Shown here: positions 36,242-45,077 of the stretch, one piece after another
Layout: each line of letters starts with the position of its first letter
How positions within the stretch are numbered: the stretch's first letter is position 1
Source of the DNA: Natribaculum luteum
Lineage (GTDB): Archaea; Halobacteriota; Halobacteria; Halobacteriales; Natrialbaceae
Direction: 5' to 3'
Assembly: GCF_023008545.1 (NCBI RefSeq)
Contig: NZ_CP095397.1
Span: 3,151,199 to 3,215,198 of the forward strand
DNA: 64,000 nucleotides
Made by a program: the position numbers and the translations under genes
The notes under the pieces: model-generated
Databases searched by the model: none
The model's input: only the letters and a program-made list of their open reading frames with translations
Told to the model about the DNA's origin: nothing

Positions 36242-37270
36242 TTACTCGTTCGCCGGCGCCGCTTCGGTCTCCTGCTCGTCGTCGTAGTCGACGTCTTCGT
36301 CCGAGCGAGCCGCGACGAGGCCACCGCGTGCGACGCTGTACAGCGGTTCGTCGGCGTGGGAGACGCCGCTGATCGAGAACGGAATGTTGGCGTCCTCGAG
36401 GTGGTCGCGGAACAGCGCCTCGAAGCCGCTGGGACTCGAGGTGCCGCCGGTGACGACGACGGGCACGTCCAGCCCTTCTTCGACGTCTTCGTCGTCGACT
36501 TCCGTGACGATGTTCTCGATGACGTAGTCGAGCAGGTTCTCGTAGTAGATCGACAGCGCACCCTCGACGCCGCCGACGTCGGTCGTGAAGTCGAGTTCGA
36601 AGTCGTCTTCCTTGATCGAGGTGACCTTGTCGACGGGCGTCCCGGTCGCACGGGCGGCCTGTTCGTCGATCCAGTCGCCACCGCGGGCGACGGAGAACTT
36701 CATGACGGGAACTGCGTAGTAGGAGAGACAGACGTTGGTCATGCCGGCACCGAAGCTGATGCCGAGACCGGTGAAGTTGTTGTCCGCGAGTTCGCTGTAG
36801 ATGACGGCCATCCCCTCGTTGATGGGTTCGGCGTCGTAGCCCATGTCGTTCAGGAACGACTCGATCGTCTTCTGGTGATACAGCGTCGAGAGATCCGAGT
36901 CGATCGGGTCGGCGGGCGTCGAGAAGTACAGTTTCTCGTCGGGATAGGCGGGTTCGCCGACGACCTGCTCGATGATGAGTTTCATCATCGGAATCGCGCT
37001 CTTCTCGTCCGACGAGAGGATCCCCTGGGACATCGGCCGTCGGGTCTCCTTGTTGAAGATGTTCGCGAAGTTCAGCGCATCGTCACCGACGACGTACACC
37101 TTGTCGTCCTTTCGAATGTGGAGCACTTCGCTTCGCGAGAGCATCTGCTCGGCCATGTCCGAGTACTCGATCTCTACGAAGGAGTTGCGCTGCTGCACGA
37201 ATACCGTGTCGTTACCATCCTGTTGTGCAGACAGGATGTTCATCGTTCCGACGTCTAGGCCTTTGGCCAT
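36242..37270 (-). CDS. Salactin-like actin homologue
   Basis: A 342-residue actin-superfamily protein. The ATG at 37270 gives [20 protein letters not shown] with the first phosphate motif (DVGT); the second phosphate motif is [14 protein letters not shown] (about residues 170-183), and the adenosine motif is [13 protein letters not shown] (about residues 278-290). Sequence and length agree with Salactin of Halobacterium salinarum, a dynamically unstable filament protein linked to chromosome partition. The acidic C-terminal tail ([18 protein letters not shown]) is unstructured. A strong TATA box precedes it. Assignment as MreB/actin fold is firm; Salactin orthology is a strong inference. Confidence 0.88.
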
Positions 37271-37292
37271 GTGTGGCCAAGGCGTCTGACAC

Positions 37293-37301
37293 ATTATAAA
37301 T
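37293..37301 (-). promoter_or_regulatory. TATA box of the Salactin-like gene
   Basis: The minus strand reads ATTTATAAT, 23-31 bp upstream of the ATG, predicting a leaderless transcript. The region up to 37360 (ATATTTTATTTATATC) is among the most AT-rich in this part of the window and may contain upstream control sites. Confidence 0.6.
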
Positions 37302-37395
37302 CTATGTGAATTACCTTCATCAGTTAACGTTCGAAACAATATTTTATTTATATCTCGTCAGAGAAGTTAATCGTCCGCAGTTCGGTTAGAGAACG

Positions 37396-38322
37396 CTAGA
37401 TGAGTCCGTCGTCGCCGAAGAGTCGCTCTTTGAGTCTGGCCAGCGGCCCCGTAATCGAACTCACGGCCCGGCCGTCGTCGCCGTCGGCGGCCTCCTCCGC
37501 TCGTTGCTGCTCGCGCAGTTCTTTCAGTTTCGCCGTCTGGTCGTCGACGGTCGAACTCGAGGTCGTGGTCTTCTTCTCGCCGCCTTTCAGCCCCTTCAGG
37601 CCGGCGACCTGTGCGTCGACACCCGTCGAGCGCGTCGTCTTCGCCTCGACGTCGATGTTGGCCTCGTCGAACTCGTGGTCGCTGAACGTCAGCCGTTTGT
37701 TGTCACTCTTTTCGACGCCGCCCCAGGAGAGTTCGACGCCATCCATCGCCTCGTCGATGTCGCTTTGGATCTCGTCGTCGGAGTACGACTCGCCTTCTTC
37801 GTCGTCGTCGCCGACTTCGACCGCCTCGACGGAGCGAGCCAGGTCGAGGTAGTGTGCGATGAGTGCGGCCCCGGTCGACGCGGTGATCGCCGCCAGGCCG
37901 ACGGCGTAGACGGCCACGACGTGTACCGTGCTGAAGTAGGTCTCGCTGCTCTCGTAGAAGTTCCAGTCGGACGGGTACAGCGACACGAACCCGGCAACGG
38001 CGACCAGCGTGATCGCCACGCCGCCGACCGAAGCGTACAGCACGCGCCGCTCGGCGGGCAGTAACACGACGATCGCGAGCATCGTCGCCGGAAGCGACAC
38101 CATCCCGAGTGCGTACGCGGGCTGGACCCACGCGAAGTACTCCGCCGACCGCGGCTCGAGTGTGCTGCTCCAGACGAAAAGCGCCAACGCTGCGACTGCG
38201 AGGCCGATCCCGCCCAGGAACAATCCGAACCCAATGTAGACGTCGGTTCGATCCTCCGGTTCGCCGATGTATCGGCGATAGAGGTCGAACAGATAGCCAT
38301 CCGTAGCCTGTTCGGCTGTCAT
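37396..38322 (-). CDS. Haloarchaeal membrane protein with acidic cytoplasmic tail
   Basis: A 308-residue protein. After a short N terminus (MTAEQATDGYLFDLYRRYIG) come four or five hydrophobic helices within residues about 25-170; the remaining 140 residues are soluble, acidic and partly low-complexity (GDDDEEGESYSDDE; KKTTTSSS), ending with FGDDGLI. The ATG at 38322 is preferred to a GTG two codons upstream. It is the nearest upstream neighbour of the Salactin-like gene on the same strand (125 bp apart). No named family is recognised with confidence. Confidence 0.72.
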   Translation of the reverse strand: MTAEQATDGYLFDLYRRYIGEPEDRTDVYIGFGLFLGGIGLAVAALALFVWSSTLEPRSAEYFAWVQPAYALGMVSLPATMLAIVVLLPAERRVLYASVGGVAITLVAVAGFVSLYPSDWNFYESSETYFSTVHVVAVYAVGLAAITASTGAALIAHYLDLARSVEAVEVGDDDEEGESYSDDEIQSDIDEAMDGVELSWGGVEKSDNKRLTFSDHEFDEANIDVEAKTTRSTGVDAQVAGLKGLKGGEKKTTTSSSTVDDQTAKLKELREQQRAEEAADGDDGRAVSSITGPLARLKERLFGDDGLI

Positions 38323-38419
38323 TGCCACCCCCTTTACCCTCCAGTACTATGACTTTTGGGCCAGGAGACTGGTAATTAAAAAAACAGGTTGGCTACCGAA
38401 GCGCAGATGCCCGACCCGC

Positions 38420-38794
38420 TCAGTCGTGACAGCAACCGCCGGCTTCGCCGCCGAAGTCGACCGCGAGCGGTTCCGAGATCACGTCGTTGATCGCAGCGAG
38501 TCGCGCGGCCAGTTCGTCTTTCGCCTCGAGGTACTCTGCCATGACGGGAATCGAGTGCAGTTCCTCCTGGGTCTGCTGGAGTTCCTGGAGGTCTTCCTGG
38601 GTCGCAGCTCCCGTCTGGCGGGCGAGCATGAACTCCTGGCGGATCTCCTCGAACTCGTCGATCTTTTCCTGGGCCTCCTCGGACTGTTCGACTGCTTTCT
38701 GGGTCCGCTCGAACGTCTCGTACTCGGGCAGTTCGGTGATCGCCTCGCCCAGTTCGCGACCGAGTTCCTCGACGCGGCTCGTCTCGATGCTCAT
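38420..38794 (-). CDS. YlbF-family helical protein
   Basis: A 124-residue, almost wholly helical protein (ELGRELGEAITELPEYETFE, then a long coiled segment EEIRQEFMLARQTGAATQED). This fits the YlbF/YmcA family, whose bacterial members form a complex that guides RNase Y-dependent RNA processing. The C terminus carries a glycine-rich tail with two adjacent cysteines (GGEAGGCCHD), which could take part in metal or disulfide chemistry. It is divergent from dph2. Confidence 0.8.
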   Translation of the reverse strand: MSIETSRVEELGRELGEAITELPEYETFERTQKAVEQSEEAQEKIDEFEEIRQEFMLARQTGAATQEDLQELQQTQEELHSIPVMAEYLEAKDELAARLAAINDVISEPLAVDFGGEAGGCCHD

Positions 38795-41334: not shown

Positions 41335-42168
41335 ATGATCGCGAGCGACTGGGACGACTGGCTGGTACGCGCCGTCGAAGACGCCGACCCGGACGGCGTC
41401 GCAGTCTGGTATCTTGGCTGTAACGGCTTCGTGGTGAAAGGCAGCGAGGGAACGACGATCTTCATCGACCCGTATCTCGGACTCGGCGACCCGCCACGAA
41501 CGGTGCGGATGATCCCCGTCCCGTTCGATCCCGCGGACGTCATCGATGCCGACGCCGTCCTCGCGACCCACGAACACACCGACCACGTCCACGGGCCGAG
41601 CCAGGCCCCGATCCTCGAGAACTCGGGTGCGACGTTCTACGCACCGGACGACAGCCTCGCGGTCGCACGCGACGAAGAGGCGTGGACCGACGAGTGGGAC
41701 GTCTCCGCCGACCAGTTCCAGGAAGTCGCCGAGGGCGATACCGTCGAGATCGGGGAGTTCACCGTTCACGTCGAAGTCGCCCACGACCCGGACGCGACGC
41801 ACCCGGTGAGCTACGTCATCGAGCACGACGCCGGGACGGTCTTCCACGGCGGTGACACGAAGCCGACCGAGGAGTTCGAGCGCGTCGGCTCCGAGTACGA
41901 CGTCGACCTCGGGATCCTCGCGTTCGGTACCGTCGGAACGATCCCGGACAAGCAGACCCGCGAACCCAAGCGCACTCGCTGGTACAACGACGAGAACCAG
42001 GCCGTCGAGGCCGCCGCCGCCCTCGAGTTCGATCGGCTCCTTCCGAGTCACTGGGACATGTGGCGCGGTCTGACCGCCGATCCGAAGGCGTTGTATCACC
42101 ACGCGAAGAGTTTCGCCTATCCGCGACGGCTCGAGCTCGTCGAGATCGGCGACCGTGTCGACCTCTGA
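41335..42168 (+). CDS. MBL-fold metal-dependent hydrolase (UlaG-like)
   Basis: A 277-residue metallo-beta-lactamase-fold protein. The zinc motif THEHTDHVHG is at about residues 78-87; further ligands are in VAHDPDATHPV, FHGGDTKP and PSHWDMWRG. The opening VWYLGCNGFVVKG and the overall order fit the L-ascorbate-6-phosphate lactonase (UlaG)/YtnP-like group. Substrate unknown; no sugar genes are adjacent. Confidence 0.85.
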   Translation: MIASDWDDWLVRAVEDADPDGVAVWYLGCNGFVVKGSEGTTIFIDPYLGLGDPPRTVRMIPVPFDPADVIDADAVLATHEHTDHVHGPSQAPILENSGATFYAPDDSLAVARDEEAWTDEWDVSADQFQEVAEGDTVEIGEFTVHVEVAHDPDATHPVSYVIEHDAGTVFHGGDTKPTEEFERVGSEYDVDLGILAFGTVGTIPDKQTREPKRTRWYNDENQAVEAAAALEFDRLLPSHWDMWRGLTADPKALYHHAKSFAYPRRLELVEIGDRVDL

Positions 42169-42241
42169 TCGGCTCGGCTGTAAGTCGCGAAACTGATACT
42201 GCCCGGTCCATTTATGGTAATGCTCTCTTAACGTGTGTTTC

Positions 42242-44026
42242 ATGAGCAACATCGCCGACACGGACGAGGACGTGGAGGTAAGCGACGACGGGTTGACCGT
42301 TCGAAAAGCATTCGTAGCGGACGAGTTTCCAGTTCCCGCGATTCGCTTCGAGATCGACTCAGAACGCGACGTTCCGGTTTCCTTTCGGCTGTCCGAACCG
42401 ATCCCCGAGTCGTTCCCGATGGACAACGTCGGGTTTCACCCGGAGTATCACAGCGACGACTGGACGGCCTTCCAGGACAACCACGTGGAGTTTACCGGGA
42501 CGGTCGACCCCGACGACTCCCTCGTGACAGTCTACGGCATCCGCCTCGGTGACGAGGACGACGCGGGCGACTTCCTGACCGAACCCACCATCGAGGACGT
42601 CCACACGGACGACGAAGTCTCACCCGACGCGGCGTCGGACGCCGAGGAGGTCGACGACACGACGATCGAGGACATCATCTCGGACGACCGAAACCAGGTC
42701 GTCAAAGACATGCTCAGCGGCGAGTCCGACTCGGTTCCCGGCCTCGACGTCGAATCGACGGACGAATCGACTGCTGACGACACAGAAGACGAATCGTTCG
42801 ACGACGCCGAGGACCTCGACCTCGACCTGGATGGCATCGACACCGACCCCGTCGACATCGACGAGGAGAGCGATGACGAGGACGACGTCCCCGACATCGA
42901 ACTCGGATTCGGCGAAGACGAGATTCCGGACGTCGACTTCGAAGACGAGGAAAGCGACGACGAGAGCGAGGAAGAGGAGCCAGAGATCGACCTCGACGTC
43001 GACGAGAGCGAGGAAGAGGAGCCGGAGATCGACCTCGACGTCGACAAGAGCGAGGAGAAGGAGCCGGAGATCGACCTCGACGTCGACGAAAGTGAGGAAG
43101 AGGAGCCAGAGATCGACCTCGGCGTCGACGAAAGCGAGGAAGAGGAGCCAGAGATCGACCTCGGCGTCGACGAAAGCGAGGAAGAGGAGCCAGAGATCGA
43201 CCTCGGCGTCGACGAAAGCGAGGAAGAGGAGCCAGAGATCGACCTCGGCGTCGACGAAAGCGAGGAAGAGGAGCCAGAGATCGACCTCGGCGTCGACGAA
43301 AGCGAGGAAGAGGAGCCAGAGATCGACCTCGACGTCGACAAGAGCGAGGAGAAGGAGCCGGAGATCGACCTCGGCGTCGACGACGAGAGCGAGGAAGAGG
43401 AGCCAGAGATCGACGACGCGGACGACGAGCACACGACGGACGAAGACGACGCAGCGTCTGCAGCCGAACCCACGCCGACGCCGCCGGCCGAACCGGTCGG
43501 CGTTCGACTCGCCGAGGAGATTCGCGACGGTCGAATCGACGACGAGGACCTCGAGGTGCTCCGGTCCGAACTCGACCTCGGACCGGCACCGAGCGAGATC
43601 GCGAAGATCGACCACCTGCAGTCTCGCATCGAGGAAGTCGCCGCCTACGCCGACGCCATCGAACGGTTCCTCGACGAGAACGGGACCGGCGACCAGCTCA
43701 TCCAGGAGTTCAAAGACGAACTGGCATCGTTCGAATCCGACCTCGCGTCGATGGACGACCGACTCGAGGAGACCGAATCGGAGGTCGACGACCTCGAGGA
43801 ACGAACCGACGCCGTCGAGTCGGACCTCGAGGCGACCGACGAGCGCATCGACGCCGTCGACGAGGACCTCGTGGCGGTCGGAGACGACGTCGACGATCTC
43901 ACAGACGAGTTCGAGGACCTCGAGGACGACGTCGACGACCTCGAGTCGAATCTCGAGGAAGTTCGCGAAGACGTCACCGACATCGTCGAGTGGCGGGACG
44001 AACTCGGCTCGATGTTTTCAGGGTGA
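42242..44026 (+). CDS. Acidic tandem-repeat protein with C-terminal coiled coil
   Basis: A 594-residue, extremely acidic protein starting at ATG 42242 (MSNIADTDEDVEVSDDG); a GTG three codons upstream is an alternative. Three parts are seen. Residues 1-120 look like a small beta-rich domain (LTVRKAFVADEFPVPAIRFE). Residues about 241-395 are eleven tandem 14-residue repeats of the type ESEEEEPEIDLGVD. Residues about 425-594 are helical, with long heptad-like coiled coil (LEETESEVDDLEERTDAVES). No membrane segment or signal peptide is present. A TATA-like CATTTATGG lies about 28 bp upstream. Function unknown; a cytoplasmic scaffold or structural role is a guess. Confidence 0.75.
   Translation: MSNIADTDEDVEVSDDGLTVRKAFVADEFPVPAIRFEIDSERDVPVSFRLSEPIPESFPMDNVGFHPEYHSDDWTAFQDNHVEFTGTVDPDDSLVTVYGIRLGDEDDAGDFLTEPTIEDVHTDDEVSPDAASDAEEVDDTTIEDIISDDRNQVVKDMLSGESDSVPGLDVESTDESTADDTEDESFDDAEDLDLDLDGIDTDPVDIDEESDDEDDVPDIELGFGEDEIPDVDFEDEESDDESEEEEPEIDLDVDESEEEEPEIDLDVDKSEEKEPEIDLDVDESEEEEPEIDLGVDESEEEEPEIDLGVDESEEEEPEIDLGVDESEEEEPEIDLGVDESEEEEPEIDLGVDESEEEEPEIDLDVDKSEEKEPEIDLGVDDESEEEEPEIDDADDEHTTDEDDAASAAEPTPTPPAEPVGVRLAEEIRDGRIDDEDLEVLRSELDLGPAPSEIAKIDHLQSRIEEVAAYADAIERFLDENGTGDQLIQEFKDELASFESDLASMDDRLEETESEVDDLEERTDAVESDLEATDERIDAVDEDLVAVGDDVDDLTDEFEDLEDDVDDLESNLEEVREDVTDIVEWRDELGSMFSG
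42962..43426 (+). repeat. Eleven tandem 42-bp repeats inside the acidic protein gene
   Basis: Each unit encodes ESEEEEPEIDL(D/G)VD. Units 4-8 are identical in protein sequence and nearly identical in DNA, while units 3 and 10 share a KSEEKEPEIDL variant and unit 10 has one extra codon. The reuse of the K variant near both ends suggests block duplication followed by expansion of the central unit. Such an array should vary in copy number between strains. Confidence 0.9.
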
Positions 44027-44153: not shown

Positions 44154-45077
44154 ATGGGCGAGACGATTCCAGTAGCAGTCCCACGAAAAGGGCGTCCGCT
44201 CGAGTCGGTGTTCGATCGGCTGGCACGCCGGCTCGACGTCGCGTCGCTCGCGGACGACGTCATTTCGACGCTTCGACACGAGAAGGCCGTCACGAAAGGA
44301 ACGCTCGAGGCGGAGACCGACGACGTGTACCATCGTCTCGCTACCTACAGTAACGTCGACGATCCGACTGAACCGGAGTATACCCTCGTCCGCGACGACC
44401 GCGCCGGCAAGCCGCGTCGAATCGTCTTCGACAGCGTGAACGTGCCGATCGCCGGCATCCCCGGCGTCCCGGATGGCACCGTGTTACAGCTCGTCGGGAG
44501 AGAGGAGCCGTTTCGCGCGCTCCGGACCCACGAGTTCGCCCTCGCGTTCGACAGTGCGGACCTGATCCTGGAGGAGGTCGTCGACCTCCGCCCGGAGCCG
44601 CTCGATCAGATCGCAGACCTCAACGCTCGGATCGATCCGTCGGAGACCGACGTCCGGGTCGTGACGGGTCTGGGCGATACGGTGTATCACACACTGATGG
44701 CGACGCCGGAGACCGTACCGTCCTCGACGTCGCTCGATCGTGACTTCCTCGAGGAGTACACCGGGCCGCTGTGTATCGTGCCGCGATACGAGCGGCTCGT
44801 CCAGGCCGTCCTCGGGACGAGGGCGCTCGACGGCGTGACGTTCGAGTACCCTCCGACGAACGTCGAGGAGGAGGCGGCGATCGCGGAGACCGGACTGGGC
44901 GTCTACCTGACAGTGACGGGGTCCACCGCACGTGAGCACGGTCTGGTTCTCGGTGATCGCCTGTTTCCAAGCGAGACCGTGTTGATGGAGAATACGGTCG
45001 AGCGCTCGAGCGTCGTCGACGGCGTTCGGTCGCTGCTCGCCACGCCAGAGGTGGAGACGGCGCTGGCGCTCGAGTAA
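44154..45077 (+). CDS. HisG-like (ATP phosphoribosyltransferase-like) protein
   Basis: A 307-residue protein beginning IPVAVPRKGRPLESVFDRLA, which resembles the N-terminal strand and loop of HisG (usually VPNKGR). A second similarity is the region FALAFDSADLILEEVVDL, and RVVTGLGDTVYHTLMATP at the position of the HisG catalytic loop. The protein lacks other clear HisG motifs, so it may be a paralogue binding a different nucleotide or phosphosugar. No his genes are adjacent. Treat the name as fold-level only. Confidence 0.6.
   Translation: MGETIPVAVPRKGRPLESVFDRLARRLDVASLADDVISTLRHEKAVTKGTLEAETDDVYHRLATYSNVDDPTEPEYTLVRDDRAGKPRRIVFDSVNVPIAGIPGVPDGTVLQLVGREEPFRALRTHEFALAFDSADLILEEVVDLRPEPLDQIADLNARIDPSETDVRVVTGLGDTVYHTLMATPETVPSSTSLDRDFLEEYTGPLCIVPRYERLVQAVLGTRALDGVTFEYPPTNVEEEAAIAETGLGVYLTVTGSTAREHGLVLGDRLFPSETVLMENTVERSSVVDGVRSLLATPEVETALALE

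Follow-up and report, generated by a model that had tools for sequence, protein, structure and literature searches.

The window, a 64,000-nucleotide stretch of the Natribaculum luteum genome (contig NZ_CP095397.1, positions 3,151,199 to 3,215,198 of the forward strand), carries a gene for a 594-residue coiled-coil protein (P0001) that begins with an ATG, with a GTG in the same frame upstream at 42233. An acidic linker joins the N-terminal domain of this protein to its coil, and within the linker lies a tandem array of 42-bp units. In window coordinates, the gene, its parts and its surroundings are:

36242-38328, minus strand: volactin, a haloarchaeal actin (PF25216, E 8.5e-139; Pfam)
41335-42168, plus strand: upstream neighbour, an MBL-fold hydrolase (Pfam; 75 of 80 loci)
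42242-44026, plus strand: gene of the coiled-coil protein, 594 residues, ATG start
42269-42598, plus strand: N-terminal beta-sandwich domain, residues 10-119, class-wide (structure models)
42659-42715, plus strand: short predicted helices within the linker, residues 140-148 and 151-158 (model, alignment consensus)
42890-42910, plus strand: motif copy PDIELGF, outside the array (alignment)
42959-43423, plus strand: array of eleven 42-bp units, DESEEEEPEIDL[DG]V with KSEEKE variants (TRF, unit split)
43496-43570, plus strand: helical hub ahead of the coil, predicted helices 419-428 and 434-443 (model)
43589-44017, plus strand: coiled coil, predicted long helices 450-480 and 483-592 (model)
44154-45077, plus strand: downstream neighbour, 307 residues, no family above cut-off (73 of 80 loci)

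The neighbour counts were taken over 80 named loci, some of which end at contig ends. The downstream protein has only a below-threshold match to HisG, as does its copy in Haloferax gibbonsii. Volactin shares its strand with a DUF7139 protein and with one that is YlbF-like (38420-38794).

The modelled N-domain has a mean pLDDT of 80.6, and the linker (approximately residues 122-415) is predicted to be mostly unstructured, the majority of its residues having a pLDDT below 50. Within it, the stretch 140-158 is conserved across the family in the alignment consensus and is modelled as weak helices (block pLDDT 52-62). The linker is 303 residues long, and its fraction of Asp and Glu, 0.51, is near the top of the family range of 0.29-0.52. 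The DNA of the coil contains tandem repeats of its own, of 21 bp (one heptad), at 43822-43945 (TRF). The earlier note on this DNA had described a small N-terminal domain followed by the array and a long coiled coil, a layout that the model bears out.

Tandem Repeats Finder placed the array at 42954-43414 (period 42, 10.9 copies, 93% match, score 762), and a unit-by-unit split gave eleven units starting at 42959, 43001, 43043, 43085, 43127, 43169, 43211, 43253, 43295, 43337 and 43382. Eleven units of 42 bp were indeed what the earlier note had claimed, between bounds (42962-43426) that lie within 3 bases of ours. Its more detailed description was likewise accurate: the central five units (4-8) share one protein sequence, DESEEEEPEIDLGV, with units 5-8 identical in DNA and unit 4 one nucleotide away from them, and the KSEEKE variant occurs on both flanks, in units 3 and 10, themselves only one nucleotide apart. 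Unit 10 has one additional Asp codon. Unit 11 diverges from the consensus after PEID, so that the full motif PEIDL is present in ten units. The 42-bp self-identity of the linker was 0.896, compared with 0.515 for the best of 2000 codon shuffles. The array is in frame, with a period that is a multiple of three, inside a single open frame.

Knowing the layout of the protein, we asked how widely it is found. Its N-domain (the first 118-120 residues) was detected in 224 of the 242 genomes sampled from the class, representing 68 of 73 genera, and in 113 of the 121 sampled from the family Natrialbaceae, mostly as a single match per genome. Rows were hand-picked for diversity, with 20 (A1) and 45 (A3) for N-domain alignments and 34 for the full-length one (A4). 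Orthologues from Natrialbaceae, Halorubellaceae, Haloferacaceae and others have a common layout, in those that were read, and mostly common neighbours. By sequence, the coiled-coil protein thus belongs to a core haloarchaeal family. The suggested search for N-domain homologues was in this way fruitful, and the view that the protein falls into no known named family holds insofar as Pfam and NCBIfam contain no model that it matches at cut-off, although the protein is a member of a core family and not an oddity. No description of the family was found in those portions available to us of the literature on volactin, Natribaculum, haloarchaeal coiled-coil or acidic repeat proteins, HubP, the MinD4 polar cap, HVO_1624-1629, HVO_1631 and HVO_1634-1638.

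Several single records deserve mention. The family is present in Haloferax, and gene counting in H. gibbonsii, with dph2 (HVO_1631) as anchor, places the H. volcanii orthologue provisionally near HVO_1626. The count ran from dph2 away from an ORF (L192:637-1254, minus strand) that is MinD-like by eye and adjoins a YlbF-like gene; it is possibly minD3 (HVO_1634 in H. volcanii). The Haloferax elongans orthologue (L199:7953-8894) reads only 314 residues, reflecting a truncation, a frameshift or a sequencing error. A contig labelled as an Elusimicrobia MAG (L176) has an N-domain identical in the tree to that of a Natrialbaceae MAG (L175) and is probably mis-binned. Some genera have 3-6 N-domain matches per genome (L090-L093 among such proteins); in some of these proteins the coil is followed by strongly hydrophobic stretches (Kyte-Doolittle maxima of 2.18 in L092 and 2.01 in L093), and others differ in their middle part.

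Profile and fold searches yielded no family assignment. The whole protein gave 12 Pfam matches at E 0.005 and 22 NCBIfam matches, none reaching its cut-off; residues 1-239 matched no Pfam family at E 0.005, and the N-domain alone gave a single sub-threshold Pfam match at E up to 10. The C-terminal part alone was closest to DUF7310 (PF23991, E 1.8e-8, top among the best 25 of 52 Pfam matches), a coiled-coil region of unknown function, and the likeness is confined to the coil. Membership was rejected at 35.2 bits for the C-terminal part and 19.6 for the whole protein, against a cut-off of 40. Among the same best 25 of 52, the coil also approaches several other coiled-coil models, including that of the archaellum accessory protein FlaC (FlaC_arch, 25.7 bits, cut-off 27.8; 21.4 bits in the H. 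gibbonsii orthologue), which we likewise rejected. One orthologue record is annotated as an 'AAA family ATPase'; however, the SMC/Rad50-type model SMC_prok_A gave 37.9 bits against a cut-off of 729.4, in the coil region only, and since the window protein matches no ATPase model at cut-off, this annotation looks wrong. With the N-domain model, Foldseek matched nothing in the PDB at or below E 0.001, its top match being the mu-homology domain of delta-COP (E 1.9e-3), and VIA-align returned a top Z of 8.7 shared by several beta-sandwiches, cellulose-binding domains included; given these values, we drew no function from the fold. Searched as a profile against PDB sequences, the N-domain gave four matches, at E 0.69-0.9 only, and a PHROGs search a single match at E 0.065.

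A major question is what the array unit consists of. The linkers of Natrialbaceae contain a short linear motif, P[DE]I[DE]L, of which we counted 63 copies in 43 linkers (38 of the 43 positive, both Natribaculum species being left out) compared with 0.2 copies in shuffles. This test took 70 of 81 proteins, the other 11 being truncated or having a hub that was not recognised. The reversed motif is absent from the same 43 linkers. When the proteins were read to their stop codons (77 rows, four having been lost to contig ends), 43 of 48 Natrialbaceae rows contained the motif, as did four of 29 rows from outside the family, all four from Halorubellaceae or Salinarchaeum. All 25 Haloferacaceae rows lacked it, the 314-residue L199 among them, and so did five Natrialbaceae rows. 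The first copy lies 34-109 residues past the PGL anchor in the Natrialbaceae rows, usually as PDIDLGF or near it, and many rows have a second copy such as PEIELDLE. Outside this gene, one motif turned up in 171,782 residues of acidic ORFs, which were taken from 50 of these loci as a mechanical, uncurated set with overlapping frames counted, and matched very acidic segments contained none, in a control of only 1,440 residues.

The conservation of the motif in the linker is therefore non-random: it is conserved, directional and nearly absent elsewhere, from which we infer a sequence constraint on part of the linker. Its absence from the 25 Haloferacaceae and five Natrialbaceae rows indicates that it is not needed for the core role of the family. 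The resemblance of the array unit to the motif is most simply explained if the unit is a duplicated form of it. Indeed, the window protein has a copy outside the array, PDIELGF at 42890, that aligns with the single motif copy of most Natrialbaceae and is, by sequence, a possible ancestor of the array unit. The earlier note had proposed a tunable spacer, a description that does not fit well, as the linker is of ordinary length (303 residues, family median 273) and its unit is a conserved linear motif instead of arbitrary filler.

Comparison with the sister species revealed how the array changes. The genus Natribaculum was sampled by two genomes, those of N. luteum and N. breve TRM20010, the latter being the nearest relative compared (98% for the N-domain). 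The N. breve array has nine units, as opposed to eleven in the window species. Between the two species, 341 of 354 bases are identical in the N-domain, 347 of 354 in the linker ahead of the array and 577 of 600 in the part after it, whereas the array has 334 of 381 identical (87.7%) plus 87 gap columns, compared with 96-98% in the flanks. The array is thus the fastest-changing part of the gene between the two species. Moreover, most interior units are closer to units of their own species than to those of the other, with the exception of N. breve unit 4, which is 1-3 bases from eight window units and 3-5 bases from most of its own neighbours. The difference in copy number together with this within-species likeness indicates that the array expanded or contracted and was homogenised after the species split, and the expansion and contraction proposed from the window alone hold at this level. 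We conclude that the array is real: a coding minisatellite, specific to the species, in which a conserved linear motif has been multiplied.

How could such an array be put to use? Our preferred reading, held tentatively and with somewhat less than even confidence, is that the protein is a conserved scaffold in which the linker motif docks partners and copy number sets valency. The beta-sandwich head, disordered acidic linker and coiled-coil stalk would form a scaffold conserved in haloarchaea, whose stalk probably self-associates. The Natrialbaceae linker would carry P[DE]I[DE]L as a docking site for a partner, and in Natribaculum the motif and its acidic spacer would have been multiplied by in-frame tandem duplication, unequal exchange and gene conversion, the added copies providing valency or reach. 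Copies in the N. breve array that depart from the motif (PGIDL twice, LEIDL once and PESDD at the end) argue against tight selection on each copy and hence against docking.

We favour valency only slightly over neutral slippage, which is almost as likely. On this view, selection would ask of the linker nothing beyond length, disorder and strong acidity, which would give solubility and reach in high salt; duplications would be tolerated, and the one in the window would have taken in the motif by chance. Consistent with slippage, the 66 complete genes have linkers of 182-458 residues (median 273) while the Asp plus Glu fraction stays within its range, the window linker being of ordinary length. 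TRF arrays scoring at least 100 occur in 21 of the 66 linkers (at least 200 in 10), with periods as varied as 42, 48, 51, 57, 72, 96 and 129. Arrays scoring at least 80 cover 10.4% of linker, 14.3% of coil and 0% of N-domain bases. The coil arrays have a period of 21, 42, 63 or 84 in 58 of 64 rows, and these heptad-based periods mean that coil and linker repeat in different ways. Many linker arrays are built of units without the motif, which no Haloferacaceae row contains at all. Within one named species, Natrinema thermotolerans, the records L148 and CP031304.1 show 22 differences over 2187 bases and none in length, but the best linker array of L148 scores only 68.

Against chance inclusion stand the conservation, direction and near absence elsewhere of the motif, and the fact that two lineages have amplified that very part. 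The second lineage is the Natrinema hispanicum group, consisting of two records of N. hispanicum, N. limicola and Haloterrigena sp. H1 (3 copies in three of these members and 5 in the other), in which P[DE]I[DE]L is repeated on a 19-residue unit with a spacing of 18-22 residues. The group is a separate clade of the N-domain tree with a support of 100/98, in a tree of 115 columns with many weak forks, so the motif was probably amplified at least twice. Among Natrialbaceae linker arrays with a TRF score of at least 120, six of 18 hold at least two motifs (2.4 expected), but all six come from two lineages, so the excess may not reflect preferential amplification of the motif. The two records named N. 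hispanicum (L165 and L172) have 3 and 5 motif copies; their loci are about 91% identical and one genome per species was sampled, so that they probably represent different species.

The valency reading is compatible with other contents in the middle of the architecture. A paralogue in the same genome (L095:4880-6367; G000:C1, about 2491279-2492766), adjoining a diphosphomevalonate decarboxylase-like gene, has the hub and coil in common with the window protein (46% over 90 residues). Its middle matches the response-regulator-binding P2 domain of CheA with 24.4 bits (cut-off 23), and that of its N. breve counterpart with 26.5 bits; the sole other P2 match in the genome is an ORF that is CheA-like by eye, with an HPt-like start and an adjoining CheB-like gene. 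The P2-like match suggests that the middle part can carry docking modules.

By analogy with HubP and FimV, the protein might instead be an organiser of the pole or of cell shape, whose coil would assemble at a cell site and whose acidic repeats would recruit motility, chemotaxis or cytoskeletal proteins. This is improbable in our view. It would be in keeping with the P2-like domain, with the approach of the coil to FlaC_arch and with volactin, which is a cell-shape actin (PMC10869688) and is encoded near the coiled-coil gene in 47 of the 80 loci. HubP itself is described as mostly unstructured in its cytoplasmic region, where imperfect acidic repeats occur in numbers that differ from one close species to another (PMC12918733). 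However, the P2 match is weak and confined to the paralogue, the FlaC_arch match (among the best 25 of 52) is under its cut-off, and volactin was found in Natrialbaceae and Halorubellaceae loci only. LysM, moreover, is not one of the 8 families listed across 20 relatives, the N-domain being modelled as a beta-sandwich, and TPR, as found in FimV, is neither one of the 12 whole-protein Pfam matches nor among the best 25 of 52 for the C-terminal part. Finally, short-read assembly can lose or gain copies of near-identical units, but a copy number produced by assembly is highly implausible, since the array lies inside a 3.66-Mb contig of a 4.61-Mb genome in 3 contigs, is in frame with distinguishable edge units and has a homologous nine-unit counterpart in the N. 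breve chromosome NZ_CP095390.1, which is titled complete.

These findings give a core haloarchaeal family that has no Pfam or NCBIfam model at cut-off a short motif that can be tested. If the motif docks a partner, then nature offers a valency series, from one or two copies (36 of 48 Natrialbaceae rows) through 3-5 in the N. hispanicum group to the nine- and eleven-unit arrays of Natribaculum. As the family occurs in Haloferax, a genetic model, the gene could be deleted and the protein localised there, but the Haloferax rows are without the motif. More speculatively, and unlikely as we consider it, a core scaffold, possibly an organiser of pole or cell shape, could use repeat number to set how many molecules of a single client it binds, so that valency would evolve, perhaps quickly enough for strains to differ, with no change in head and stalk.

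How does this protein compare with known systems? The closest analogue by design, compared by layout only and not proposed as a homologue, is HubP/FimV, where conserved N- and C-terminal parts are likewise joined by a long, mostly unstructured acidic region. In HubP the likeness extends to acidic repeats that vary in number and sequence between close species, as the disordered acidic region of the coiled-coil protein also varies in repeat number. The copy number of the fimV tandem repeat is reportedly of importance in Legionella. By contrast, the coiled-coil protein starts with a beta-sandwich and ends in a coiled coil, and no transmembrane stretch was found in it or among the 81 family rows by Kyte-Doolittle hydropathy averaged over 19 residues (maximum 0.57 for the window protein and 1.45 for the rows). 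The second comparison is with coding minisatellites, which are in-frame intragenic tandem repeats: the array is like them in its in-frame unit, its species-specific homogenisation and its change of copy number between relatives, and differs from them in that the repeated unit is here a conserved linear motif of a core family.
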